In this document: one piece after another, positions 1 through 12,778 of the stretch | Layout of the letters: each line of letters begins with the position of its first letter | Position numbering within the stretch: position 1 is the stretch's first letter | Assembly: GCA_018222665.1 (NCBI GenBank) | Contig: JAAEZW010000029.1 | Coordinates: forward strand, 1 to 12,778 | Length of the DNA stretch: 12,778 nt | DNA from: Paracoccaceae bacterium | Lineage (GTDB): Bacteria; Pseudomonadota; Alphaproteobacteria; Rhodobacterales; Rhodobacteraceae | Direction of reading: 5' to 3' | Made by a program: the position numbers and the translations under genes | The notes under the pieces: model-generated | Database searches by the model: none | Seen by the model: only the letters and a program-made list of their open reading frames with translations | What the model was told of the DNA's origin: nothing

Positions 1-1
1 G

Positions 2-55
2 CTCGTACCCGATCTTACCTTGTGGCTTCCAAGAGCATTTGGATACCAAGGATAA
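2..55 (+). CDS. C-terminal tail of an upstream gene, possibly a TRAP transporter large permease (partial)
   Basis: Only 17 codons are visible before a TAA at 53-55. They read LVPDLTLWLPRAFGYQG. The pattern of a hydrophobic stretch, then LWLPR and a short Gly-rich end, resembles the C-terminus of DctM-type TRAP large permeases, which often sit next to quinate/shikimate catabolic genes. The stop lies 5 bases before the ATG of the next gene, and the last codons carry that gene's ribosome binding site, which fits one operon. A second open frame (1-63) ends in a TGA that overlaps the next ATG by 4 bases, so the reading frame itself is uncertain. This is a weak call based on very little sequence. 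Confidence 0.3.
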   Translation, partial: LVPDLTLWLPRAFGYQG

Positions 56-59
56 TTTC

Positions 60-1943
60 ATGAAAACCTCGATCGCCACAGTTTCAATTTCGGGAAACCT
101 TAGGGAAAAACTCGAGGCAATTGCGGCAGCTGGGTATGATGGCATCGAAATTTTTGAACAAGATTTCATCGCTTATGATGGCTCGCCGCGCGACGTTGGG
201 AATATGGTTCGTGACTACGGCCTAGAAATTACTTTGTTTCAGCCATTTCGTGATTTCGAAGGTTTACCAGAGATTATGCGCTCTAAAGCCTTCAATCGTG
301 CAGAGCGTAAGTTTGATCTCATGCAGGAACTTGGTACCGATCTAGTGTTAATTTGTTCATCTTGTCATGCTTCTTCCTTGGGTGGAATTGATCGTGCGGC
401 TGCTGATTTCAATGCACTTGGGGAAATAGCGAAAGATCGAGGTATCCGAGTTGGCTATGAGGCTCTTGCCTGGGGAAAACACGTCAATGACCACCGGGAT
501 GCATGGGAAATTGTGCGCCGTGCAGATCACGCAAATGTTGGGTTGATTTTGGACAGCTTTCATACGCTTTCTCGTAAGATCGAACCTGCAACCATTCGAT
601 CAATTCCTGGTGATAAAATATTTTTCGTGCAGCTTGCTGATGCGCCTTTGATCGAAATGGATCTTCTGTATTGGTCTCGCCATTTCCGAAACATGCCGGG
701 AGAGGGTGATTTAAACGTCCAAGGTTTTATGCAAGCAGTTATGGCGACAGGTTACAGCGGTCCTGTAAGTCTAGAGATCTTCAATGACCAATTTAGAGGG
801 GGCTCTTCAAAGTTGGTTGCCGTAGATGGATATCGGTCATTAATTTCCTTGATGGATGATGTACGGCGCGCTGAACCAGAAATAAGTTTGGATTTACCTG
901 AATTCCCGCGGCGTAGCGAAACATCAGGCTTGTCTTTCGTCGAATTTGCATCTCGTGGTGAAGAAGCACAACGTTTAGGTAATTACCTGGAGAGCATGGG
1001 GTTTTCCAAAATTGGCAAACATAAAAACAAGGCCGCTGACCTCTATCAGCAAGGAGGTATTCGCATTGTCTTGAATCAAGAAACATCTGGCCATGCTGCA
1101 ACTCAATGGAATGCCCGTGGAACCACTGTGTGCGATATCGGGATTGAGGTCTCCTCGGCTAGGGATACCTTGGAGCGTGCTGCATACCTTGGCAATTCTT
1201 CATTTAAACAGCCGCAAGAAAAAGATGAGTTAGATATTCCAGCTGTTCGTGGATTATCCGGATCTGTAATACATTTTGTTGGCAACGAAAACGGGATGGA
1301 CCGCCTCTGGGAAACAGAGTTTTCCCAAACAGCTGATCAAAAGGGTTTTGGGCTTCGCAACATTGATCACCTTGCTCAAACCATGAGTTACGATGACATG
1401 CTAAGCTGGAGTCTTTTCTACACCTCTTTATTTGAAATGAAAAAATCACCGATGGTCGATGTTTTTGACCCAGACGGGTTGGTGCGCAGTCAAGTTGTTG
1501 AAACAGCCGATGGGTCTTTGCGGGTAACTCTCAATGGTGCAGATACGCATCGAACATTGGCCGGATCATTCTTGGCTGAATCTTTCGGAGCATCAGTACA
1601 ACATCTGGCGCTTGCTTGTAATGATATCTTCTCAACTCTGGAAAAGATGATTGAACATGGGTTTGAAACCTTACCAATGCCATCAAATTACTATGACGAT
1701 CTGGGTGCCAGGTTTGATCTGCCTGCCGGCCTTTTGGAAAAAATGAAACGGGCTAATGTTCTCTACGATCAGGACGATGGCGGTACATTTTTCCAGTGTT
1801 ATTCAAAAGAGTTCACTGGTGGTTTGTTCTTTGAAATTGTGCAACGTGTCGGCAACTATCAAGGATACGGTGCGCCTAACGCACCGTTTCGAATTGCAGC
1901 GCAAAAGCGCATTAAATCGATAAAAGGTATGCCAAAACTCTGA
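60..1943 (+). CDS. quiC: Bifunctional 3-dehydroshikimate dehydratase / 4-hydroxyphenylpyruvate dioxygenase-like fusion (QuiC1 type)
   Basis: This 627-residue cytoplasmic enzyme probably converts 3-dehydroshikimate to protocatechuate. Residues 1 to about 265 form a xylose-isomerase-like TIM barrel. A four-residue metal set is visible: E134 (GYEAL), D165 (LDSFH), Q191 (VQLADAP) and E239 (SLEIFND). These positions match the ligand set I recall for Pseudomonas QuiC1. Residues from about 290 to the end form two VOC modules like HPPD and keep the HPPD iron triad H437 (NIDHLA), H515 (VQHLAL) and E592 (FFEIVQR). The length equals that of the QuiC1 family. The ATG at 60 is chosen because AAGGA at 48-52 lies at proper distance; a TTG at 39 has no such site. 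It is the first visible gene of a four-gene operon, 22 bases before the next. The domain call is secure; the exact substrate is inferred. Confidence 0.87.
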   Translation: MKTSIATVSISGNLREKLEAIAAAGYDGIEIFEQDFIAYDGSPRDVGNMVRDYGLEITLFQPFRDFEGLPEIMRSKAFNRAERKFDLMQELGTDLVLICSSCHASSLGGIDRAAADFNALGEIAKDRGIRVGYEALAWGKHVNDHRDAWEIVRRADHANVGLILDSFHTLSRKIEPATIRSIPGDKIFFVQLADAPLIEMDLLYWSRHFRNMPGEGDLNVQGFMQAVMATGYSGPVSLEIFNDQFRGGSSKLVAVDGYRSLISLMDDVRRAEPEISLDLPEFPRRSETSGLSFVEFASRGEEAQRLGNYLESMGFSKIGKHKNKAADLYQQGGIRIVLNQETSGHAATQWNARGTTVCDIGIEVSSARDTLERAAYLGNSSFKQPQEKDELDIPAVRGLSGSVIHFVGNENGMDRLWETEFSQTADQKGFGLRNIDHLAQTMSYDDMLSWSLFYTSLFEMKKSPMVDVFDPDGLVRSQVVETADGSLRVTLNGADTHRTLAGSFLAESFGASVQHLALACNDIFSTLEKMIEHGFETLPMPSNYYDDLGARFDLPAGLLEKMKRANVLYDQDDGGTFFQCYSKEFTGGLFFEIVQRVGNYQGYGAPNAPFRIAAQKRIKSIKGMPKL

Positions 1944-1965
1944 GTAGTTAGAAAGATTTATTAAA

Positions 1966-3147
1966 TTGGAAAAGACGTACTCCATTCGAAAGCATCAGGA
2001 ACCGTTCCGCGTTGGATTGATTGGGACAGGCAAGATTAGCGACATATATCTGCAAAACTGTGCCAAGTGGTCAGGGCTGTCCGTTTACGTGTGTGGCAGC
2101 TTGAATCTGTCTGAAAGCGAAGAGAAGGCCGCAAAATATGGTGTACCAAGCGTTGCCCACCCTGATGATATAATTTCTGATCCAAACCTTGATTGCATCC
2201 TGAATCTAACGATCCCTGCTGTGCATGCGGAAGTAAGCATGCGAGCATTGCGCGGGGGGAAACATGTATATTCTGAAAAACCTTTTGCGACAAATCGTGA
2301 AGATGGGGCTGCAATCCTTAATTTGGCTCAAAAATCTGGGTTACTGGTTGGTAATGCACCTGACACATTTTTGGGCGCGCGCTGGCAAACCGTGCGTCGC
2401 TTGTTAGACGAAGGTTTGATTGGTGATGTGACGGGATGCATGGCCTTCGTTGGGACGCACGGAGTCGAGCGTCATCATCCCAACCCAGATTTCTATTATC
2501 AAGCCGGTGGTGGTCCCTTATTGGATTTGGGTCCTTATTATTTGACGGCAATGGTGTTCCTCATGGGACCTATTCGTCGTGTTAGTGGTATGGCGCGTAA
2601 AACATTTGATCGGCGTCAAATCGAAAACGGTCCTCGCAACGGGGAATGGATGACTGTCGATGTCGATACACATTCGATGTCAATGCTTGAATTCGAAAGC
2701 GGTGCAATTGGATCGATGACGATCAGCTTTGATATTTGGGATAGTGAAACGCCTCGGTTTGAGATTTATGGAACCGAGGGAACAATTTGCATTCCCGATC
2801 CTGATCCTGTGCATGGGGCAAACGATTTTCACGGGCCTGTATGGTATCGGACACGAAAAGAGAGTCGGTGGGAATTACAACCGCGTCCGACGGATCGGCC
2901 AACGGAGTGGTGCATTGCTGAAAATAGGCATGGATTCAACGAAAACAGTCGTGGTTTGGGATTATTAGACCTTTCCTTTGCCGTGAAAGAGGGTCGCTGC
3001 CCGAGGGCCAGTGGTGATTTGGCCCAACATGTTTTGGACGTTATGTTGGGTATATTAGAGTCCCCTGACAGAGGCGGCTATGTAGATATCCAAAGCCGCT
3101 GCGACCGACCCAATCCGTTGCCCGAAAATTTTGCAGAGGATCTGTGA
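1966..3147 (+). CDS. Gfo/Idh/MocA family NAD(P)-dependent oxidoreductase
   Basis: This 393-residue protein has the fold of sugar and cyclitol dehydrogenases such as IolG. The Rossmann motif GLIGTGKIS is at residues 17-25, the catalytic EKP triplet at 104-106 (SEKPFATN), and the C-terminal-domain motif GGGPLLDLGPYY at 181-192. Tyr stands where many members have the catalytic His after DxG, which is usual for the GGGPLxDLGPYYL subgroup. The start must be TTG at 1966: an in-frame TAG is at 1945-1947 and the first in-frame ATG falls after the nucleotide-binding domain. The ribosome binding site is weak. The stop overlaps the next ATG by one base (TGATG), so translation is probably coupled. Its place beside quiC suggests oxidation of a ring hydroxyl in the same pathway. 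The substrate cannot be read from sequence. Confidence 0.85.
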   Translation: MEKTYSIRKHQEPFRVGLIGTGKISDIYLQNCAKWSGLSVYVCGSLNLSESEEKAAKYGVPSVAHPDDIISDPNLDCILNLTIPAVHAEVSMRALRGGKHVYSEKPFATNREDGAAILNLAQKSGLLVGNAPDTFLGARWQTVRRLLDEGLIGDVTGCMAFVGTHGVERHHPNPDFYYQAGGGPLLDLGPYYLTAMVFLMGPIRRVSGMARKTFDRRQIENGPRNGEWMTVDVDTHSMSMLEFESGAIGSMTISFDIWDSETPRFEIYGTEGTICIPDPDPVHGANDFHGPVWYRTRKESRWELQPRPTDRPTEWCIAENRHGFNENSRGLGLLDLSFAVKEGRCPRASGDLAQHVLDVMLGILESPDRGGYVDIQSRCDRPNPLPENFAEDL

Positions 3148-3806
3148 TGAGCATTACCAATCTGGACATTTCTGAACCATTTTTCACAACTAATGTGTTT
3201 CAAGAAGAGCAAAGATTTACAGTCATCGGAAAGAGTATCTTACTGAATCTGTCTGAGCACCCAATTCATATACGGGATCAAAAGATCGGGCACTTACAGT
3301 CCGTGATTGTTTCGGATGTTGAACTCATCGGTTTGGAACACGCGGTGCTGATCGAACGATTTGCGGATTATTCTGATGAAAATGAATTGCTGGAACGCGT
3401 TCGCGCAACTTGGCCATCTGCTTATGAGGTGCGCGGCGAAGAACGCTTGCGTGGCATTGGCCACTATATGTCGCCCAAGGTCTGGTTAGGGCAATTTGGG
3501 TTTACGATGTATCATTCTGCAACCGTGCCCCTGAATGTTGGATTGCACCGTGAGCATGCGTTTTGTCCTGTTCCTGGATTTCGCGAAGTACATACACAAA
3601 TCATCGGGTTCGGAAAAATGCAGCAGTGTCGCGAACGCGATGTAAGTACGCTTTATTTAGAAGAGCCAATGGCCCCTGGAACGACACACCGCCCCATGTA
3701 TGATGCAGATGGAAATTACCCATGGCATCAATTTGAAACCATTACACCTTCGATTTTCATGGCTGTAGAAATGTTGCCAGCAGGTGCCACACCCCCAACC
3801 CTTTAA
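3147..3806 (+). CDS. Cupin-like protein of unknown function
   Basis: I do not recognise this 219-residue family by name. The ATG at 3147 shares one base with the preceding stop; an in-frame GTG one codon upstream is less likely. There is no signal peptide or membrane segment. The C-terminal half is rich in potential metal ligands: H134 and H137 (LHREH), E147 and H149 (FREVHTQ), E172 (YLEEPM), H181 (MAPGTTHRP) and H194 (YPWHQF). The stretch around 170-181 looks like the second cupin motif (PG followed by His), and 134-149 could supply the first. A metal-dependent isomerase, lyase or sugar-acid binding role would fit its place between two Gfo/Idh/MocA dehydrogenases. That role is inferred from context only. 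Confidence 0.7.
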   Translation: MSITNLDISEPFFTTNVFQEEQRFTVIGKSILLNLSEHPIHIRDQKIGHLQSVIVSDVELIGLEHAVLIERFADYSDENELLERVRATWPSAYEVRGEERLRGIGHYMSPKVWLGQFGFTMYHSATVPLNVGLHREHAFCPVPGFREVHTQIIGFGKMQQCRERDVSTLYLEEPMAPGTTHRPMYDADGNYPWHQFETITPSIFMAVEMLPAGATPPTL

Positions 3807-3823
3807 TATGATCCGAGACATCA

Positions 3824-5002
3824 ATGATTTTACGTGACCCAATTGATATAAATGGCCCGTTCCCAAGGCAATCTCGTCGTCTGCGACTGGGTGTTGTTGG
3901 CGGTGGACGCATTGCACAAACACAAGCGATGGCAGCGCGGCTCACAGACCGCTGGGATGTGGTTGCAGGGGCCTTATCCTCGGATCCTGAGCGAACATTT
4001 GAACGGGCAGCGGATTGGCACATTGACCCAGATCGGGCGTATTCTTCGTTCCAGCAGATGGCCGAGAAGGAAGAACAACGTGATGATGGGATTGACGCCG
4101 TCATGATAACAACCCCAAATAACATGCATTATCCAGCTGCAAAAACATTCTTGGACGCTGGAATTGATGTGATTTGCGACAAACCACTGACGAATAAGGT
4201 CGAAGAGGCATCGCTGCTTGGGGATGCGGTGGGCGAAAGTGGTCAGGTTTTCGCCGTATGCTATACAATGTCGTGCTATCCGATGATCCGACAGGCTCAG
4301 GAAATCGTCGCATCAGGCGTTTTGGGGCGGATCAATCAAATTCACGTTGAATTTATGCAGGACTGGATGACGCCGCCAGATGCAGGGGACGCGTCACACG
4401 TCAAGTGGCGCTTGGATCCAGCGGTGTCTGGTCCTACATCTTGTGTTGGGGATATTGGCACACACGCAGCACATTTGGCACAGTTTGTCAGTGGTTTAAC
4501 CTTGCGCAGCGTGCGTGCAGATTTTCATGTATGTGGTTTACCAAAACCATTAGAAGACACCGTTTTCATGATGACAGAATATGAAGGCGGCGTACCAGGG
4601 ACATTGCTGGCGACACGGCAGGCCCCTGGAAATCGTGGCGGTTTACGCTTGCGTATTTTTGGCAGCCTGGGTGGGTTAGAATGGGATATGGAGCATGCAG
4701 AACAGTTATACCTGAATGTATTTGGTGAACCTGATCAAACCCTAAGCCGAGGTCATGGACACGGCATTTCCACACAAACTGAGCGATTTGTGCGCACGGG
4801 ACGTGGTTTCCCAGAAGGACTGATCGAGGCCTGGGCAAATCTATATACCGAATTTGCTGTTGCTGTTGCAGCGCGGCGCGATCAAATCGAATTACCCGAT
4901 GCATACTTACGCTATCCAAACATTGATGAGGGCATTGACGGTGTTCGATTCATCGATGCCTGCGTTCGATCAAATATATCTAAAAATTGGGTAAACCTAT
5001 AA
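3824..5002 (+). CDS. Gfo/Idh/MocA family NAD(P)-dependent oxidoreductase (second copy)
   Basis: This 392-residue dehydrogenase is clearly distinct from the one at 1966-3147. The Rossmann motif GVVGGGRIAQ is at 23-32. The catalytic triplet is DKP (119-121) instead of EKP. The C-terminal motif CVGDIGTHAAHL (207-218) includes D210 and the usual catalytic His H214. TTPNNMHYP near 96-104 is the typical strand-loop before the second part of the nucleotide site. The start is ATG at 3824, 17 bases after the previous stop; the ribosome binding site is weak. It ends the operon, and a long repeated non-coding element begins 4 bases after its stop. Two non-identical dehydrogenases around one unknown protein suggest sequential oxidation and reduction at different ring positions, as in some cyclitol and 3-keto-sugar pathways. 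Substrate unknown. Confidence 0.85.
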   Translation: MILRDPIDINGPFPRQSRRLRLGVVGGGRIAQTQAMAARLTDRWDVVAGALSSDPERTFERAADWHIDPDRAYSSFQQMAEKEEQRDDGIDAVMITTPNNMHYPAAKTFLDAGIDVICDKPLTNKVEEASLLGDAVGESGQVFAVCYTMSCYPMIRQAQEIVASGVLGRINQIHVEFMQDWMTPPDAGDASHVKWRLDPAVSGPTSCVGDIGTHAAHLAQFVSGLTLRSVRADFHVCGLPKPLEDTVFMMTEYEGGVPGTLLATRQAPGNRGGLRLRIFGSLGGLEWDMEHAEQLYLNVFGEPDQTLSRGHGHGISTQTERFVRTGRGFPEGLIEAWANLYTEFAVAVAARRDQIELPDAYLRYPNIDEGIDGVRFIDACVRSNISKNWVNL

Positions 5003-5201
5003 TTCAAGGACCGCTTTCAGGACCACTTCCATATTTTTGTCGTCTTCTAACCATCTATAATTAAATGATAATTTAGAAAAGTATGGTTGTGCCCCCGGGC
5101 ACCACTTTTAAAAACAATATCAATGACTTAATTTTCGCACACTTACGCTAAGCGTGTGAGATTCAAAAACACACCAAAAACAGTTTTGCGTTTGTTTGCG
5201 G

Positions 5202-5225
5202 GGTGAGGTTTCGGGGTCCCACACT
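5202..5225 (+). other. Imperfect stem-loop in repeat copy A
   Basis: The arms GGTGAGG (5202-5208) and CCACACT (5219-5225) pair with one A.A mismatch and one G.U wobble around a 10-base loop. In copy B the equivalent arms differ in sequence, but two U-A pairs there correspond to two G-C pairs here. This is what selection on an RNA stem would leave. With only two copies this is suggestive and no more. Confidence 0.4.
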
Positions 5226-5254
5226 GTGTCGACAACCTAGTGGAAGAACACAGT
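5222..5254 (+). other. Conserved inverted repeat in copy A
   Basis: ACTGTGT (5223-5229) and ACACAGT (5248-5254) are perfectly complementary and separated by 18 bases that include CAACCTAGTG. Both arms are unchanged in copy B. The left arm overlaps the 3' arm of the preceding stem-loop, so the two structures cannot form together. Confidence 0.5.
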
Positions 5255-5322
5255 TCTTATTATGCGCCACTACTTGTTCAGTCGGTTGCATGATGGTCAG
5301 ATTATACAAACTGTATATGATT

Positions 5323-6213
5323 TCATTGCTGGTATTGCCGTAAACTTTCGTGAAACAACTGCATGAATTCAAGAGAAATCATGGATGGCCTTTTCAAAGT
5401 AGGTCTTAATAGTGCAAGTCGATGTGGGATCTTCGGTCTGAATGGACGGAACTCCAGTCCCGTGTTTACATATTTTGAGGCGTCAAGTTCACTTAATATC
5501 GATACCCCAAGTCCATTGCTCACAAGCTCACACGCCGCAGTAAATTGACGAACTTCGATACTTGATTTGAATTCAATTTGTGCACGTTGAAATGCTTGGG
5601 AAACACTTTGAAAGAAAACACTATCCCTTCGCGAATGAATAAGTTTCTCATTAATTAAATCGGTTGGAGTTATTTCTTTTAGTTGCCCCAGAGCATGGCC
5701 TTGCGGAAAAACACAGACCGTTCTGATGTCAATTTCAGTACGTTCAACTGATGGATGCCCAGAAAAACCATCAGTTATACCTATATCGTATTGCTCACCT
5801 GCCATCCACTCTAAGATCCTTTCGGGACGATCGGGTTCGATCGTCATTGTAACTTCTGGTCTATTTTTCAAAAAAGTTGCTACGACTTTAGGAAGATGAC
5901 TCGTAGCAAAACCTGGCAGACAAGCGATTTTGAGATGTCCAGCCTTACGATCATTGATTTCGGCACTTGTGTTTTGAATGTTTCCCATAAGTTCCAAAAC
6001 GCGCTCAATATCGGGATACAGGAGTTGAATTTCTTGGCTTGGTGTTAACTGTCCATCGCGTTTGTTGAATAAATTGAATTCAAAATTTTTTGATAAATCT
6101 GCAATTAGCCGGCTCATGGCAGGTTGACTAATTCCCAATGTTTTTGCTGCTCCAGAGATTGAACCAGTCGTGATCACGGCGCTTAGCGCTTCTAATTGTC
6201 TTAGTCTTAACAT
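5323..6213 (-). CDS. LysR-type transcriptional regulator
   Basis: This 296-residue regulator has the normal LysR length. The N-terminal winged helix-turn-helix covers about residues 4-62, with recognition region GSISGAAKTLGISQPAMSRL (17-36). The C-terminal periplasmic-binding-like effector domain follows, ending in FMQLFHESLRQYQQ. The ATG at 6213 is preferred over an upstream in-frame TTG at 6243, because family members begin right at the LRLRQLEAL helix. The sequence resembles the OccR/NocR branch that controls transport operons, but I cannot name its ligand. It is divergent from ugpB and separated from it by 166 bases, the classical layout for a LysR protein that activates the neighbouring operon and represses itself. 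Its 3' end faces repeat copy A. One line counted inside it (5941-6000) is 38 % G+C. Confidence 0.92.
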   Translation of the reverse strand: MLRLRQLEALSAVITTGSISGAAKTLGISQPAMSRLIADLSKNFEFNLFNKRDGQLTPSQEIQLLYPDIERVLELMGNIQNTSAEINDRKAGHLKIACLPGFATSHLPKVVATFLKNRPEVTMTIEPDRPERILEWMAGEQYDIGITDGFSGHPSVERTEIDIRTVCVFPQGHALGQLKEITPTDLINEKLIHSRRDSVFFQSVSQAFQRAQIEFKSSIEVRQFTAACELVSNGLGVSILSELDASKYVNTGLEFRPFRPKIPHRLALLRPTLKRPSMISLEFMQLFHESLRQYQQ

Positions 6214-6265
6214 TTTTAGGTTCTTCTTTTTTGTTCTGATCAAAATATAACATTGTATTATATTA

Positions 6266-6295
6266 TTGATATAAAAATTTATCTTGAATTATAAA
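6266..6295 (+). promoter_or_regulatory. Candidate sigma70-type promoter for the ugp operon
   Basis: TTGATA (6266-6271) and TATAAA (6290-6295) are spaced by 18 bases in the lysR-ugpB gap. They would give a leader of roughly 75 bases before ugpB. The region is very AT-rich, so matches by chance are likely. On the other strand ATTATA (6257-6262) reads TATAAT and could be the -10 of lysR. Confidence 0.35.
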
Positions 6296-6296
6296 T
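6277..6296. promoter_or_regulatory. Candidate LysR operator (T-N11-A palindrome)
   Basis: ATTTAT (6277-6282) and ATAAAT (6291-6296) form a perfect inverted repeat around 8 bases and contain a T-N11-A core (T6279 to A6291). This is the general LysR box form. It overlaps the candidate -10 of ugp and lies upstream of the lysR start. The AT-rich context lowers confidence. Confidence 0.3.
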
Positions 6297-6369
6297 TAAC
6301 CCTCGTAATCTTTGGTCACTCGAAGACTTCAAACTTTAACTGATAGTTCGATAAGCATCAAAAGATGCA

Positions 6370-6375
6370 GGGAGG
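6370..6375 (+). promoter_or_regulatory. ugpB: Shine-Dalgarno site that fixes the ugpB start
   Basis: GGGAGG is followed by AAAA and ATG at 6380. It lies inside the longer open frame that begins with ATG at 6365, so the upstream ATG is rejected and the protein starts at MNKNILG. Confidence 0.75.
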
Positions 6376-6379
6376 AAAA

Positions 6380-7690
6380 ATGAATAAAAACATATTAGGC
6401 GTACTTGCAGCGTCGACGTGTCTTTCGCCTCTGATGGCAATGGCACAGACAGAAGTACATTTTTGGCATGCGTTTACCGGCAGGCTTGGAGAATTAGTTG
6501 CTGCTCAGGTTGATGAATTCAACGCAAGTCAAAATGATTATAAGGTAGTCCAAACCCATAAAGGTAACTACTCTGAAACCTTGAACGCTGGTATTGCAGC
6601 ATTCCGAGCTAAAGAGCAGCCTCATATTTTGATGGTGTTTGAAGTTGGTACAGCTACCATGATGGCGGCAAAAGGTGCGATAAAACCAGTCTACGAAGTA
6701 ATGGCTGAAAGTGGTGCAACCTTTGATCCAGATGCATACATAGGTTCGGTTAAGGGTTATTACACTTCAACTGATGGCGAAATGCTGTCTCTTCCATTCA
6801 ACTCTTCCACGCCGGTACTTTGGGTAAATCGTGACGCGATGTCTGCGGCTGGGGTAAACCCAGATACTGATATGTCGACTTGGGAGCAAGTAGGTGACGT
6901 GCTAGATCAATTGAAAGCTGGTGGCGAAGATTGCCCTCTGGTCACAGCTTGGCAAAGTTGGATTCACTTGGAAAATTTCTCCGCTTATCATAATGTACCA
7001 TTCGCATCGAAGGACAATGGTTTTGCTGGACTTGATACTGAACTTATGCTGAATGGTCCTGCACAAGTTGCTCATTTGTCTGCGATGGGAAATTGGGCAA
7101 AAGATGGGAAATTCATCTACACTGGTCGTCGAAATGAAGGTGGAGCAAACTTCCGTTCTGGTGAGTGTGCATTATTTACAGAGAGCTCAGCAGGCTATGC
7201 CGGCATTAGTCGTGAAGCCGAGTTCGATTTTGAAGTTAGGCCACTTCCATATTGGAAAGCCGTTGCTTCTGAACCACAGAATACAATCATCGGCGGTGCA
7301 TCCCTTTGGGTAATGCAAGGACACGAGAGTGATGAATATAAAGGTGTTGGAGAGTTTTTATCTTTCCTTTCAACTTCAGATGTACAGGCAGCCTGGCACC
7401 AAAATACAGGATATTTGCCTATTACCGCTGAAGCTGGTGAAGCGACGCGTGCATCCGGTTTCTACGAAAAAAATCCTGGAACGGATATCGCTGTAATTCA
7501 GATGACAGCTAAGCAGCCAACGGCTAACTCGAAGGGCCTAAGATTAGGTTCTTTTGATCAGATCCGTGGGATCATTGATGAAGAGTTAGAGGCTATTTGG
7601 TCAGGTGATAAATCTGCTCAAGAGGCTATGGATAGTGCAAAAGAACGAGGTGATAAATTACTACGTCGCTTCGAATCTGCTAATAAATAA
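6380..7690 (+). CDS. ugpB: sn-Glycerol-3-phosphate ABC transporter, periplasmic binding protein UgpB
   Basis: This 436-residue extracytoplasmic protein (E. coli UgpB is about the same length) binds sn-glycerol 3-phosphate and glycerophosphodiesters in the periplasm. A Sec signal peptide with a short basic start and hydrophobic core ends at LMAMA, with likely cleavage after residue 22 before QTEVHFWHAF. UgpB hallmarks follow in order: HKGNYSETLNAGIAAF, VFEVGTATMM, LPFNSSTPVLW, ASKDNGF, IIGGASLWVMQG, TGYLPIT, GFYEKNPG, KGLRLGS and DEELEAIW. These match the E. coli protein closely and separate it from generic sugar-binding proteins. It is the first gene of the operon, with a good ribosome binding site. 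A strong hairpin follows the stop, which fits the high expression expected for a binding protein. Confidence 0.93.
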   Translation: MNKNILGVLAASTCLSPLMAMAQTEVHFWHAFTGRLGELVAAQVDEFNASQNDYKVVQTHKGNYSETLNAGIAAFRAKEQPHILMVFEVGTATMMAAKGAIKPVYEVMAESGATFDPDAYIGSVKGYYTSTDGEMLSLPFNSSTPVLWVNRDAMSAAGVNPDTDMSTWEQVGDVLDQLKAGGEDCPLVTAWQSWIHLENFSAYHNVPFASKDNGFAGLDTELMLNGPAQVAHLSAMGNWAKDGKFIYTGRRNEGGANFRSGECALFTESSAGYAGISREAEFDFEVRPLPYWKAVASEPQNTIIGGASLWVMQGHESDEYKGVGEFLSFLSTSDVQAAWHQNTGYLPITAEAGEATRASGFYEKNPGTDIAVIQMTAKQPTANSKGLRLGSFDQIRGIIDEELEAIWSGDKSAQEAMDSAKERGDKLLRRFESANK

Positions 7691-7700
7691 AGCTAACCAG

Positions 7701-7731
7701 TAACTGGCGGGTTAAGATAACTCGCCAGTTA
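7701..7731 (+). promoter_or_regulatory. Intercistronic hairpin between ugpB and ugpA
   Basis: TAACTGGCGGGTT (7701-7713) and AACTCGCCAGTTA (7719-7731) form a 13-base-pair stem with one G.U wobble and a 5-base loop, 10 bases after the ugpB stop. No run of U follows, so it is not a clear terminator. Such hairpins after binding-protein genes usually protect the upstream mRNA from 3' exonucleases and lower expression of the permease genes. Confidence 0.75.
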
Positions 7732-7748
7732 ACTTTAGGTATTAAATA

Positions 7749-8630
7749 ATGGAAAAGCGGGTAATCTTTCGCGGTTGGTTGCTGCCAATCTGCTTAGTCG
7801 CACCTCAACTTATTATCTCAATAATTTTTTTCTTTTACCCAGCTGCTCAAGCTGTCTGGCAGTCATTATTCATCCCAGATCCTTTTGGTCTTTCATCTCA
7901 ATATGTCGGATTGGGTAACTTTGAATACCTGCTGGGCGACAAATATTATCGTGCATCGTTTTTAACAACAGCGGTATTTTCAGTTTTAGTAACATTTTGT
8001 TCAATGATACCCGCTTTGTTGCTCGCCGTATGCGCTGACCGATTAATTAAAAGCTCAGGTATATATAGTACGCTCTTGATATGGCCATATGCTGTCGCCC
8101 CCGCGGTTGCTGGTGTGCTGTGGATGTTTATGTTTAACACAAGAGTTGGCATTGTTTCTTGGTATCTTGGGCAGCTGGGATATGATTGGAACCACGTTTT
8201 GAATGGTGGTGAAGCTATGGGTTTGGTTGTCATAGCTTCGGCCTGGGGACGCATAAGTTATAATTTCTTATTTTTCTTTGCCGCGTTACAGTCAGTTCCA
8301 AAGTCGTTAATTGAAGCGAGTGCTATTGATGGTGCACATTTCTGGCGTCGATTTTTTGATATTGTGCTCCCTCTCATTACCCCAACGGCTTTTTTCCTCT
8401 TAGTTGTAAATGTTGTTTATTCATTTTTTGAAACTTTTGGTGTTATTCACACCATTACTGCAGGGGGTCCTCAACAAGCTACGACTATATTAGTCTACAA
8501 GGTTTTTTCAGACGGCTTTGTCGGACAAGATCTTGGCTCTTCTTCGGCGCAATCCGTAATTCTATTAGTAGTGGTAGGTCTACTGACCGTCATACAATTT
8601 AAATACATAGAAAAGCGAGTGCACTACTGA
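7749..8630 (+). CDS. ugpA: sn-Glycerol-3-phosphate ABC transporter permease UgpA
   Basis: This 293-residue inner-membrane permease (E. coli UgpA is 295) forms the translocation pore with UgpE. Hydrophobic segments begin at about residues 11-30 and recur near 72-95, 107-128, 157-180, 205-228 and 267-284, consistent with six helices. The cytoplasmic EAA loop that docks on the ATPase is at 189-208 ([20 protein letters not shown]). [14 protein letters not shown] (228-241) is typical of the UgpA/MalF type. The start is ATG at 7749, 58 bases after ugpB; the gap holds the hairpin. Its TGA overlaps the ugpE ATG by one base. Assignment to Ugp and not another sugar importer rests on the UgpB and phosphodiesterase partners. 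Confidence 0.9.
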
Positions 8631-9484
8631 TGGCTTTTGGTAATGGTATTGTTCAGAAAAAAGGGTCACATTTGTGGCTAACACATCTGTTCATGATCCT
8701 TGGCGTACTTATTATATTTTTTCCGATTTGGTTAGCCTTCGTCGCATCGACTGTAACGCAGCCAGAAATTGTATCCCCGCCTATGCCAATCTTGCCTGGT
8801 GATCAATTTATAGACAACTATAAGGCAGCACTTTTTGCGGGAGTGAATGTTCCAGTGGCAAAAATGTTGTTTAATAGTTTTGTAATGGCCATGGGTATTG
8901 CCGTTGGGAAAATTACAATCTCGCTGCTTTCAGCGTTCGCGATTGTGTATTTCAGATTTCCAGGCAGGCAGGTATTTTTCTGGCTAATTTTCATTACGCT
9001 TATGCTTCCAGTCGAAGTTCGTATCGTGCCAACTTTTGAAGTCATTGCGAGCTTTGGACTTTTGAATAGCTATTCAGGATTAATCTTACCACTTATTGCT
9101 TCAGCAACTGCTACTTTCTTATTTCGGCAGTTTTTTATGACAATTCCGGATGAACTTGCTGAAGCTGCGAGAGTCGATGGAGCTAAACCTATGAGGTTTT
9201 TTATCGATATTGTTCTTCCTATGAGTCGCACCAATATCGCTGCACTCTTTGTTATTTTATTCATTTACGGTTGGAATCAATACTTATGGCCTTTGCTCAT
9301 CACTACAGACCCCGAAATGAATACGATTGTGATGGGTATTAAACAAATGTTCCCTTCTGGCGACGATGTTGCCGAATGGCCTGTGATCATGGCCACATCA
9401 ATATTGGCCATGATACCTCCAGTTATAGTGGTTATATCAATGCAGAAACTTTTTGTACGTGGACTTATGGATAGCGAGAAGTGA
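8630..9484 (+). CDS. ugpE: sn-Glycerol-3-phosphate ABC transporter permease UgpE
   Basis: This 284-residue inner-membrane permease (E. coli UgpE is 281) pairs with UgpA. The first hydrophobic segment is about 17-40, with others near 84-107, 113-129, 147-168, 203-223 and 252-272. The EAA loop is at 174-197 ([13 protein letters not shown] then FFIDIVLP). [16 protein letters not shown] sequence at 212-223 ([12 protein letters not shown]) is characteristic of the MalG/UgpE type. The start codon overlaps the ugpA stop (TGATG), and the stop is one base from the ugpC ATG, so all three are translationally coupled. Confidence 0.9.
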
Positions 9485-9485
9485 A

Positions 9486-10535
9486 ATGGGAAATGTAGTT
9501 CTCAATTGTGTCAAAAAGAGCTTTGGTTCGACAGAAGTAATCCACGGGATCACTATCGATATCAAAGATGGCGAATTTATCGTTATTGTGGGTCCGTCGG
9601 GATGTGGAAAATCCACATTGTTAAGGATGGTTGCTGGCTTAGAAGTAATTTCTTCTGGTGAGGTACAGATCGCTGGAAAAGTAGTGAACGATAAGGAGCC
9701 AATGGATCGCAACATTGCGATGGTATTCCAAAATTATGCACTGTACCCGCACATGACGGTAAAACAAAATATGGGGTATAGCCTAAAACTTGCCGGACAT
9801 TCAAAATCTGAAATTGAACGGAAGGTCAGTGCTACAGCAGATCTACTGCAATTGAGTGAACTTCTTGAAAGGAAGCCGCGTCAGTTATCCGGTGGACAAA
9901 GGCAACGTGTTGCGATGGGGCGAGCAATTGTGAGAGAACCATCGGTTTTTTTATTTGATGAGCCGTTATCAAATTTGGACGCTAAGCTGAGAGTGCAGAT
10001 GCGTCTAGAAATACGACAGCTCCAACGGCAGCTCGGCATCACGTCTTTGTATGTCACTCATGATCAAGTTGAAGCGATGACTATGGCTGATCGTATGATA
10101 GTTATGAACAATGGAAATGCGGAACAGATAGGCACTCCACTAGAAGTCTATCAAAAACCTGAAACACTATTCGCAGCACAATTCATTGGTAGTCCGGCGA
10201 TGAATATTTTTGATGCTGAAATTCAGAATGGATGTCTAATATTAAATGGTTTAGCGTTGACTGAAGTGTCGTTGCCAGATGGCAAAGTGGCACTTGGAAT
10301 TCGCCCAGAGCATCTTGTGCCATCTGCAAGTGGACCTATCAAGGTATCACTCAACAATGCAGAACCCTTGGGCGCCAACACTTTGCTCTACGGAAACATT
10401 AAATCATCTAATGAGGACATCACGATAAGTATGCCTGGTGTGCACGAGATTTCGGAAAATGAGGGAGATAAATCCTTTGGAGTAGAGAAAGCCAAAATAC
10501 ACCTGTTTTGTCCTTCAAGCGGTCGACGGCTATGA
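9486..10535 (+). CDS. ugpC: sn-Glycerol-3-phosphate ABC transporter ATPase UgpC
   Basis: This 349-residue ATPase (E. coli UgpC is 356) sits on the cytoplasmic face and drives UgpAE. All nucleotide-binding motifs are intact: Walker A GPSGCGKST (36-44), Q-loop Q82 (FQNYALYPHM), signature LSGGQ (134-138), Walker B VFLFDE (154-159) and switch His H192 (YVTHDQ). A C-terminal TOBE-type domain follows from about residue 240, with IRPEHLVP near 280-290, as in the MalK/UgpC group. The ATG at 9486 is preferred over TTG at 9453, since the protein then starts at the family's usual first strand. The stop overlaps the next gene by 4 bases (ATGA). Confidence 0.92.
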   Translation: MGNVVLNCVKKSFGSTEVIHGITIDIKDGEFIVIVGPSGCGKSTLLRMVAGLEVISSGEVQIAGKVVNDKEPMDRNIAMVFQNYALYPHMTVKQNMGYSLKLAGHSKSEIERKVSATADLLQLSELLERKPRQLSGGQRQRVAMGRAIVREPSVFLFDEPLSNLDAKLRVQMRLEIRQLQRQLGITSLYVTHDQVEAMTMADRMIVMNNGNAEQIGTPLEVYQKPETLFAAQFIGSPAMNIFDAEIQNGCLILNGLALTEVSLPDGKVALGIRPEHLVPSASGPIKVSLNNAEPLGANTLLYGNIKSSNEDITISMPGVHEISENEGDKSFGVEKAKIHLFCPSSGRRL

Positions 10536-11470
10536 AAAAACATTCATATCGCGCAGTAGAAGCATTTAGGGGGGCAGATAAGACAATCCGCATAGTTGGA
10601 CACCGAGGTGCGCGAGGTGTTTTTCCTGAAAATACAATGATTGGCTTCAAATCTACGATTGAAATGGGCATTAATCTATTGGAGTTCGATGTAGTTTTAT
10701 GTGCTGATGGCGTCCCGGTAATAACGCATAATCATGCGTTGCATGTACCCACTTTTAAACATGTTGGGGGGGACTTTATAGATCATGAGCCTAAAGTTTT
10801 GGATTTAACTTGGTCCCAATTGCAATGTTTCGAAGTGGGACGTTTAGATAGCAGCACACAATATGGTCAGAGATTTCCGGATCAGCTGCAATTTGCTGGA
10901 ATAAAGGTGCCAAAGTTAGATGAACTTTTGGGTCATGTTGCGAATTTGAGTGAAAATAACGTTTATTTAATGCTGGAAATAAAATCTGATCCTAATCATG
11001 TAAATAACGATATCTTTCGTAAGAAGTTGGTGAGTGAAGTCACTAAACGAGTTCGACACTTTGATCTAATTAATCAGACACTTTTACATAGCTTTGATTG
11101 GCGAATTTTAGAAGAATGTAAATCTTCAGCCCCAGATTTCCCGACCTCGTTTTTGACCCAAATAAATCACAACCCTGCTGACGTGGGAGAGGATTCATCG
11201 CTTTCTGTAGGTCCAAATATAAAAAATTACGGAGACCACATTCCAGATAAAGTTTTCGAAAAAGGTGGATCGCTCTGGTGTCCTAATGTGCAAGATATTA
11301 CTCCTACCGGTCTTAAAAGAGCAAAAAACCTAGGCTTAGTAACTGCTGTCTGGACTGTGAATACTGTGGAAGAAATAGATCGTATGATTGAATACGGTGT
11401 GGACGCAATCGTTACGGATTATCCAGGTCGGGTCCAACAAAGGCTAGCCGTTAATGGATATAATTGGTAG
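10532..11470 (+). CDS. ugpQ: Glycerophosphodiester phosphodiesterase (UgpQ-like)
   Basis: This 312-residue GDPD enzyme hydrolyses glycerophosphodiesters to sn-glycerol 3-phosphate and an alcohol. The TIM-barrel signature is present: HRGARG with catalytic H24 and PENT (23-35), metal ligands E51 and D53 (LEFDV), catalytic H66 (ITHNHAL), E149 and K151 (LMLEIKSD), and the closing WTVN and DAIVTDYPGR motifs. The usual HD after the second catalytic strand is HN here. VGRLDSSTQYGQRFPDQ is a family stretch seen in proteobacterial cytoplasmic members. No signal peptide is visible, so it should act on imported diesters like UgpQ. It is longer than E. coli UgpQ (about 247). The ATG at 10532 overlaps the ugpC stop. 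One line counted in the gene (11041-11100) is only 33 % G+C, the lowest in the window. Confidence 0.88.
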   Translation: MKKHSYRAVEAFRGADKTIRIVGHRGARGVFPENTMIGFKSTIEMGINLLEFDVVLCADGVPVITHNHALHVPTFKHVGGDFIDHEPKVLDLTWSQLQCFEVGRLDSSTQYGQRFPDQLQFAGIKVPKLDELLGHVANLSENNVYLMLEIKSDPNHVNNDIFRKKLVSEVTKRVRHFDLINQTLLHSFDWRILEECKSSAPDFPTSFLTQINHNPADVGEDSSLSVGPNIKNYGDHIPDKVFEKGGSLWCPNVQDITPTGLKRAKNLGLVTAVWTVNTVEEIDRMIEYGVDAIVTDYPGRVQQRLAVNGYNW

Positions 11471-11690
11471 TGAATAATACATTAAATATCGTAAAGGCCT
11501 TCTACGCAAATAAGCACATTTAGGACCGCTTTTAGGACCACTTCCATATTTTTGACAACTTCTAACCATCTATAATTAAATGATATTTTAGAAAAGTATG
11601 GTTGCGCCTCCGGGCACCACTTTCCAAAATAATATCAATGACTTAATTTTTGCACTCTAACGCTATGCGTGTGAGATTCAAAAACACACC

Positions 11691-11714
11691 AAACACACAC
11701 TTTTTCGTGTGTTT
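11691..11714 (+). other. Stem-loop 1 in repeat copy B
   Basis: AAACACAC (11691-11698) and GTGTGTTT (11707-11714) are perfectly complementary around an 8-base loop. The corresponding part of copy A can form only a weak four-pair stem (5178-5181 with 5190-5193). Confidence 0.5.
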
Positions 11715-11715
11715 G

Positions 11716-11741
11716 AGTGTTTAGTTTTAGGGCTAAACACT
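11716..11741 (+). other. Stem-loop 2 in repeat copy B
   Basis: AGTGTTTAG (11716-11724) and CTAAACACT (11733-11741) form a perfect 9-base-pair stem with an 8-base loop. It is the counterpart of 5202-5225 in copy A. U21-A36 and U22-A35 here correspond to two G-C pairs there. Confidence 0.5.
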
Positions 11742-11771
11742 GTGTCTACAACCTAGTGAAAGAACACAGTG
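11738..11771 (+). other. Conserved inverted repeat in copy B, overlapping stem-loop 2
   Basis: CACTGTGT (11738-11745) and ACACAGTG (11764-11771) form 8 base pairs around 18 bases containing CAACCTAGTG. The left arm shares 4 bases with stem-loop 2, so the two are alternatives. The same overlap exists in copy A. Confidence 0.5.
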
Positions 11772-11935
11772 CTTGCTGCTCTCAGTTATTTGGCAGTTCC
11801 AAAGGTTTCTAACTTTGCGTGTTTTTTATTTGTTGTATTGGACGAAACTGCATAGCGTCGTGATCAGAACTTTATGGATTAATAACTTAGTCCTTTGTTG
11901 GGTGTTTATGTGAATTGTAGGGTATCTTTGAAAAA
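11771..11935. other. Intergenic region upstream of the flavoenzyme gene
   Basis: These 165 bases lie between repeat copy B and the start of the DauA-like gene. I see no ORF, strong hairpin or convincing promoter. Together with copy B they make the largest gene-free stretch of the window (11471-11935). Confidence 0.6.
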
Positions 11936-12778
11936 ATGATGGACCGAATTTCATACGACATTGTTATCATAGGGGCAGGTATTGCAGGCACCTCTGTTGC
12001 CGCGGCCTTAGGAGATGGCGTGAAGGTCGCTTTGGTAGAACAAGAACAGCAACCTGGATATCACTCAACAGGTCGATCTGCCGCAATCTACTCACCAACC
12101 TATGGTCCGACCCCAATCAGAGCCTTAACGAGAGCGTCAATAGCGCACTTTTTAACGGTTGGTTGTGACGAGCCAAGGAGTCTTCTCACACCAATTGACG
12201 CGGCATTTATCGCCCGTGCTGATCAAAGTGGCTCTTTTGATGCCTTATGCAGCGAATTGAATGGGGTCATGAATTGGCGAGAAATAGAAGCGAAGGAGAT
12301 ACAAAACAGGGTATCATTTCTCCGTGAAGGGTATGTTGCTAAAGCTATTTTAGACGATGGCACGTCCGAGATTGATGTGGCTTTGCTTCACCAGAAATTT
12401 TTGAAGGTATTTTCTCAAAACGGTGGGACGCTTCTTAAATCAACGGAAGTGGTGGAACTTCAGAAGCAGAAAAACGGGTGGCTAGTGAAAACTAACCAAG
12501 GTGAATGCGTTACAAAAATAATCGTCAATGCCGCTGGTGCATGGGCAGAACAGGTTGGTTCGCTGGCAGGTGCAGAATGTATTGGTCTTACACCAAAACG
12601 CAGAACTGCACTGATTGTAGAACCACCAAAAGGGGCTGACCTGAGTAGGATTCCGCTCGTCATTGATATTGATGAACAATTCTATCTCAAGCCATATGGC
12701 AGCAAATTGCTGATATCCCCAGCTAATGAGGATCCGGTGCAGCCATGCGATGTGCAACCAGATGAAATGGATATTGCT
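11936..12778 (+). CDS. FAD-dependent D-amino-acid dehydrogenase, DauA-like (partial, runs off the window)
   Basis: The frame is open from 11936 to the window end (281 residues seen; family length about 375). Two adjacent ATG codons (11936, 11939) are possible starts; the ribosome binding site is weak. The N-terminal Rossmann fold has GAGIAG (13-18) and the ribose-binding E35 (ALVEQE). PGYHSTGRSAA (40-50) is the FAD-contact motif of DAO-family dehydrogenases, and PIRALTRAS, VNAAGAWA, LTPKRR, FYLKPYG and SPANEDPV closely follow Pseudomonas D-arginine dehydrogenase DauA. It should oxidise a D-amino acid or related amine to the 2-oxo acid. The DauA active-site H48 appears to be Ile51 here, and the Glu that reads the arginine side chain (E87) appears to be replaced by Ala, so arginine is doubtful as substrate. 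These comparisons are from memory. Confidence 0.85.
   Translation, partial: MMDRISYDIVIIGAGIAGTSVAAALGDGVKVALVEQEQQPGYHSTGRSAAIYSPTYGPTPIRALTRASIAHFLTVGCDEPRSLLTPIDAAFIARADQSGSFDALCSELNGVMNWREIEAKEIQNRVSFLREGYVAKAILDDGTSEIDVALLHQKFLKVFSQNGGTLLKSTEVVELQKQKNGWLVKTNQGECVTKIIVNAAGAWAEQVGSLAGAECIGLTPKRRTALIVEPPKGADLSRIPLVIDIDEQFYLKPYGSKLLISPANEDPVQPCDVQPDEMDIA

Follow-up and report, generated by a model that had tools for sequence, protein, structure and literature searches.

The window, i.e. the whole stretch of 12,778 nt that was analysed, contains six genes lying between two direct repeats (5007-5258 and 11522-11774). The genes and the parts of both repeat copies are listed in Table 1. The first-pass annotation had read the enclosed genes as a regulator, an importer and a phosphodiesterase (the lysR-ugp module), and Pfam analysis confirmed this composition by identifying a LysR protein, a solute-binding protein, two permeases, an ABC ATPase and a GDPD. 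The true start of the GDPD gene may lie a few codons downstream of position 10508. In the left flank, Pfam identified a xylose-isomerase-like/HPPD protein and two proteins of the Gfo/Idh type; a further one had no match. The right flank (11759-12778) matched C13:7-1023 of HIMB11, a cultured strain of the same genus, and the first gene there was judged by eye to encode an FAD oxidoreductase. The G+C content of the bracketed unit (5259-11521) was 41.7%, compared with 47.5% in the left and 45.1% in the right flank; the published value for HIMB11 is 49.7% (PMC4148974).

Table 1. Genes and repeat parts at the bracketed locus (positions in the window)
Feature	Position	Strand	Remarks
Left arm, repeat copy 1 (end of preceding unit)	5007..5090	+	kept in full-length copies of the window subtype; sharp outer edge GGACCGCTTT
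tRNA-Phe 3'-end core, copy 1, 18 nt exact, GCCCCCGGGCACCACTTT	5091..5108	+	exact against the end of the intact HIMB11 tRNA-Phe plus CTTT
Right arm, copy 1; closes with inverted-repeat motif 5222-5254	5109..5258	+	arm profile of 151 positions
LysR-family regulator	5323..6243	-	PF03466, PF00126
ABC solute-binding protein	6365..7690	+	PF13416, PF01547
ABC permease	7749..8630	+	PF00528
ABC permease	8630..9484	+	PF00528
ABC ATPase with MalK-type OB domain	9483..10535	+	PF00005, PF17912
Glycerophosphodiester phosphodiesterase (GDPD)	10508..11470	+	PF03009
Left arm, repeat copy 2 (end of ugp unit)	11522..11609	+	
tRNA-Phe 3'-end core, copy 2, 14 nt exact, CCGGGCACCACTTT	11610..11623	+	
Right arm, copy 2 (start of next unit); closes with inverted-repeat motif 11738-11770	11624..11774	+	

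The two repeat copies were 87% identical over the full 252 bp (BLAST, E = 1.9e-83), and the ungapped matches given in the first-pass annotation were reproduced exactly, with 155 of 169 positions from 5007/11522 and, past a diverged middle, 32 of 34 from 5221/11737. A repeat finder reported two segments, one of 176 nt with 91% identity and one of 51 nt with 82%, at a spacing of 6515-6516. In the two copies, the left motif GGACCGCTTTnAGGACCACTT begins at 5008 and 11523, respectively, and the last position of the right motif CACTGTGT..AACACAGT is 5254 and 11770. Neither copy contains an ORF of at least 80 aa, and no transposase ORF was found within the repeat, which fits the earlier view that this is not an ordinary insertion sequence. 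Both copies carry the 3' end of tRNA-Phe(GAA), the tRNA being identified with ARAGORN. Two subtypes of the repeat were distinguished, one retaining the last 46 nt of the tRNA and the other, found in the window, 18 and 14 nt; the shortness of the latter remnants is in keeping with Rfam and tRNA scans of the window, in which nothing was found. The core is followed in both subtypes by a common arm of about 150 bp, which ends in the right motif. They differ before the core, where the window subtype has the left arm beginning with its left motif and the other subtype has an inverted terminal motif. Judged from sequence, this layout is as expected of att sites with arms, and the inverted-repeat motifs presumably bind an integrase.

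Although the repeat had been described as a pair, many further copies exist in the same genome and across the genus. The suggested search of the window's own genome and of related genomes yielded 15 matches in the former (E ≤ 0.01) and 24 in three congeners, one of them HIMB11 (13, 10 and 1), short pieces included in these counts. When the second copy was used as query, matches were obtained in 6 of 61 genomes, i.e. the own genome, the three congeners and two others; the nucleotide matches in other genera comprised 23 and 27 nt only. The four genomes of the genus contained 11, 12, 4 and 1 occurrences of the right-end motif (at most three mismatches), and the backward control contained none. 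A profile of the repeat gave 46 hits over the contigs examined, or 52 with five loci added. Copies shared one orientation on each contig (28 copies, 10 contigs with at least two copies); not counted were one split copy (C20) and five partial hits on the opposite strand, each next to a main copy, which were taken for the inverted left-arm motif of the other subtype. No match was found to the right-end pattern in viral contigs or to the repeat in plasmids and phages. The right-end motif was also seen near the end of contig JADHLS010000200.1 (L114:58-121), which is binned as Reyranella and is possibly misbinned.

In HIMB11 the arm comes immediately after an intact tRNA-Phe gene (C8:66294-66368). 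This gene stands at the head of a 53-kb run in which sites, some complete and some partial, alternate with metabolic units; the sites recur at 56.8, 51.5, 41.9, 25.3 and 12.7 kb, all in the same orientation. Only the 25.3-kb site has a complete arm and core; the one at 12.7 kb consists of left arm and core, and the rest are right-arm parts. On the opposite side of the tRNA gene recO, era, rnc, lepB and pdxJ were read by eye. Since HIMB11 is a cultured strain, at least its 150-kb contig is no binning artefact. In the metagenome-assembled genome NKJ.7 the tRNA-Phe is likewise followed by the arm, and in congener G002 the contig stops four bases past the tRNA-Phe, where the repeat would break the assembly. 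Several draft contigs have an end that falls within the repeat or at the tRNA core, indicating that the arrays fragment in assembly, and this break-up explains why such loci are easily missed.

Eighteen units of about 1.6-16.4 kb, with limits set by hand, have a site, full or partial, at either end on the same contig. These units contain 104 ORFs of at least 150 aa, of which 100 entered a Pfam scan; the other four are cut by locus ends. The commonest families were ABC permeases and ATPases, Gfo/Idh proteins, aldehyde dehydrogenase, TRAP DctM and GntR/FCD. The tyrosine recombinase family PF00589 is absent from the 25 families listed, which include all with at least three members, and thus has at most two members in these units. 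Two are known, both in HIMB11 unit C8:51437-41979, so that a recombinase was detected in one of the 18 units. A whole-genome scan for PF00589 missed the 411-aa integrase of this unit, which was caught when the single protein was searched against Pfam, and absences in that scan therefore carry little weight. Direct repeats of the tRNA 3' end were found at the borders in both the window and HIMB11, and the HIMB11 array as a whole shows the tycheposon traits of a tRNA border and a tyrosine recombinase. An integrase near an end was found by Pfam in one HIMB11 unit and not in the window's unit, which, like a CIME, has repeats at both ends and six genes (LysR, four ABC parts and GDPD), none of them for integration.

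Comparison with HIMB11 showed that window positions 1-5253 are collinear with C13:14066-19296 and that collinearity stops at the end of the repeat. The two neighbours of the ugp unit thus map to separate parts of C13, and both are present in HIMB11 in a different order and non-adjacent. No counterpart of the ugp unit was found in the three congeners beyond generic short ABC-gene matches, at a completeness of 82% for G002 and 76% for G003 and an estimated coverage of 90.6% for HIMB11 according to its authors (PMC4148974). The tRNA-Phe 3' end in the repeat, the break of synteny at the repeat and the missing counterpart support the suggestion that the repeats are remains of integration, marking a unit that can be gained or lost. 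A single-repeat locus without the module, as sought by the first-pass annotation, was found at HIMB11 C13:19068-19296, where a single repeat comes after the left neighbour and the ugp genes are missing. The same annotation had held that repeats at unrelated intergenic sites, with no such locus, would speak against its reading; copies were indeed found in many places, but the places in question are junctions within co-oriented arrays. Elsewhere on C13 (L049:4893-5126) a 77-aa piece resembling the end of a Gfo/Idh gene precedes a repeat, comparable to the junction at C13:19065.

Alignment between congeners gave 19 blocks (at least 400 bp, at least 75% identity) with 38 ends, 17 of which are contig ends. 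Ten of the 21 internal ends lay within 60 bp of a repeat (nine in both contigs), the repeat making up 3.3% of the length, and the other 11 lay away from any repeat; block ends depend on one another, and their placement at repeats is favoured by alignments running through paralogous copies. The larger blocks were 87-95% identical, apart from a 489-bp block around a repeat (82%), and the core region was 91-94% identical, so that comparing units with the core region gave no sign of recent transfer between the congeners. Mapping of the crossover by arm identities of copies sharing one flank revealed no clean switch; copies at the same junction were no more alike than others, and the crossover cannot be placed. 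The first 70-125 bp past the site are common to units of different cargo, indicating that exchange occurred inside units too. Exchange acted along the unit ends, where the action of an integrase and homologous recombination are inseparable.

The 411-aa tyrosine integrase of HIMB11 starts 83 bp from a partial site (C8:51552-51437), which covers model positions 137-252 only and is without the tRNA core. The protein had 3588 relatives at E ≤ 1e-10, with 84-96% identity among the best 120 of the 3588, and at E ≤ 1e-80 it was found in 7 of 295 genomes of the family. No match was obtained in plasmids at E ≤ 1e-60; two stretches of viral contigs fitted the integrase patterns, neither of which was confirmed. 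Relatives were located near tRNA-Phe sites in two other genera. In G175, an integrase of 85% identity lies 3.7 kb from an intact tRNA-Phe with the arm after it, and in G097 one of 66% identity lies between two tRNA-Phe fragments 11.4 kb apart. An arm profile stripped of the tRNA matched G175 clearly (5.5e-16) and G097 weakly (0.00048 and 0.1), with no hit in the reversed sequences of either. Other relatives lie beside tRNA-Met (G072, 66%) or tRNA-Cys (G315 and G207, 40-41%), and no tRNA-Phe piece was found within the 60 kb and 11 kb examined around the integrases of 86% identity in G315 and 87% in G263. The tRNA-Phe gene was found in 149 of 150 family genomes, and at least six (G021, G065, G115, G134, G181 and G190) carry, 18-36 kb downstream on the same strand of the same contig, a 3' fragment of it measuring 48-54 nt, which indicates that tRNA-Phe is a recurrent target in the family. 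Contig C336 ends in a repeat of the window subtype and starts with a different, partial recombinase.

A second, compact tyrosine recombinase of 188 aa faces the HIMB11 integrase (L043:9561-10127, i.e. C8:49561-50127), and relatives with 77-79% identity accompany elements in G072, G097, G175, G207 and G315. Tandem elements of the same integrase family were seen at tRNA-Cys in G315 (L140-L142) and at tRNA-Met in G072 (L143-L146), with long near-identical repeats that include the integrase. On contig C153 of G003 (L072:2628-2710), the stretch after the repeat resembles the promoter region of the HIMB11 integrase (79% over 123 bp) and the integrase is absent, likely a trace of its loss. An integrase remnant comprising the first 35 residues was observed at HIMB11 C17:11857-11960 (L129:2858-2961), far from any full repeat found.

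Taken together, the lysR-ABC-GDPD unit is most likely a CIME-like cassette without an integrase, located in a tandem tRNA-Phe island, and the islands of the genus look like rows of exchangeable nutrient-use cassettes that differ between related ocean bacteria. The repeats would be att sites left by tyrosine-integrase elements that insert at the tRNA-Phe 3' end, and a full site would consist of a left arm (the end of one element), the tRNA core and a right arm (the start of the next). Serial insertion at this one target would produce tandemly arranged elements that all point the same way and extend outwards from the intact tRNA gene. The ugp unit would have kept both ends and no recombinase, making it non-autonomous and cis-mobilizable-like, and, given an integrase from elsewhere, core-to-core exchange could release it as a circle of about 6.5 kb, or the unit could be moved whole. 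Excision between the two copies in the window is conceivable, and we infer that the 411-aa integrase acts on these sites in trans and that the unit could still move. The att reading is supported by the tRNA-Phe 3' end, the motif counts, the common orientation and the integrase adjoining a site, as well as by the arm beside tRNA-Phe in HIMB11, NKJ.7, G175 and G097, the collinearity with HIMB11 ending at the repeat and the block ends at repeats. It is weakened by the unplaced crossover, the 11 block ends off repeats, the exchange inside units, the coreless site beside the integrase, the integrases of G315 and G263 without a tRNA-Phe piece, the different recombinase on C336 and the shortness of the matches in other genera.

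Part of this evidence fits another explanation, to which we give a smaller though substantial share of belief: the sites may be dead, old att remnants serving as mere homology for RecA-type recombination that deletes, duplicates and reorders units. Copies that appear exchanged or homogenised along their length, breakpoints beyond the core and the single integrase-bearing unit all agree with dead sites, whereas the occurrence in other genera of related integrases at tRNA-Phe, together with the same arm, argues against them; this indicates that such a system exists in the family and says nothing on activity in the window's genome. Chromosomal integrons are directional arrays of exchangeable units with a site between units, and an integron with unusually large cassettes would also account for a co-oriented array with a conserved site. 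Here, however, the site is derived from a tRNA end, the array begins at a tRNA gene, whole operons form the units and the linked integrase has relatives at tRNA genes, which makes an integron highly improbable; the recombinase matches seen were general Pfam ones. Equally improbable is that an ordinary repeat dispersed over intergenic regions (of MITE, REP or terminator type) flanks the module by accident; such a repeat would be non-coding, multi-copy and have internal inverted repeats as observed, but would leave the tRNA-Phe core, the intact tRNA heading the array, the common orientation and the integrase linkage unexplained.

A bolder extension of the att reading is speculative, and we would sooner doubt than accept it: the genus of HIMB11 might maintain an integron-like pool of whole catabolic operons (transporter, enzymes and regulator), each with the same 250-bp att site. 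A small number of integrases working in trans would insert, remove and rearrange these operons within one tRNA-Phe array, and the operons would pass between species. The findings suggest a concrete route for gain and loss of nutrient-uptake operons in a coastal marine genus with small genomes, and the site can be assayed in HIMB11 in culture.

No published description of this array was found in titles and abstract openings among the matches listed, and the words repeat, island, integrase, mobile and phage are absent from the main text of the HIMB11 paper (PMC4148974). The kind of structure is already known from the ssrA islands of Dehalococcoides (PMC3146451) and from CIME accretion (PMC5704250). 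CIMEs, like the unit described here, have att sites on both sides and no integration genes and lie in tandem at the 3' end of a tRNA gene; they are tied to decayed ICEs or IMEs, whereas our unit is likened to them by att sites and gene content, and its repeated site of about 250 bp with two arms differs from theirs (PMC5704250). In Dehalococcoides, as here, tandem islands with catabolic genes lie downstream of one RNA gene and are bordered by direct repeats of its 3' end, 16 of them with and 15 without an integration module; there the target is ssrA and the enzyme a serine recombinase, whereas here they are tRNA-Phe and a tyrosine recombinase (PMC3146451). Tycheposons and the additive tRNA-Lys islands of Methylophilaceae share the aquatic setting, a tRNA border, a tyrosine recombinase and nutrient-related cargo, and in the Methylophilaceae island fGI-2 the last 20 bp of tRNA-Lys recur (PMC10872708). 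This likeness is one of description, and the account of both in that paper, as far as it was available, mentions no long two-armed site (PMC10872708). The distinctive points of the present system are this long two-armed site and an array made up of mostly integrase-free metabolic units.
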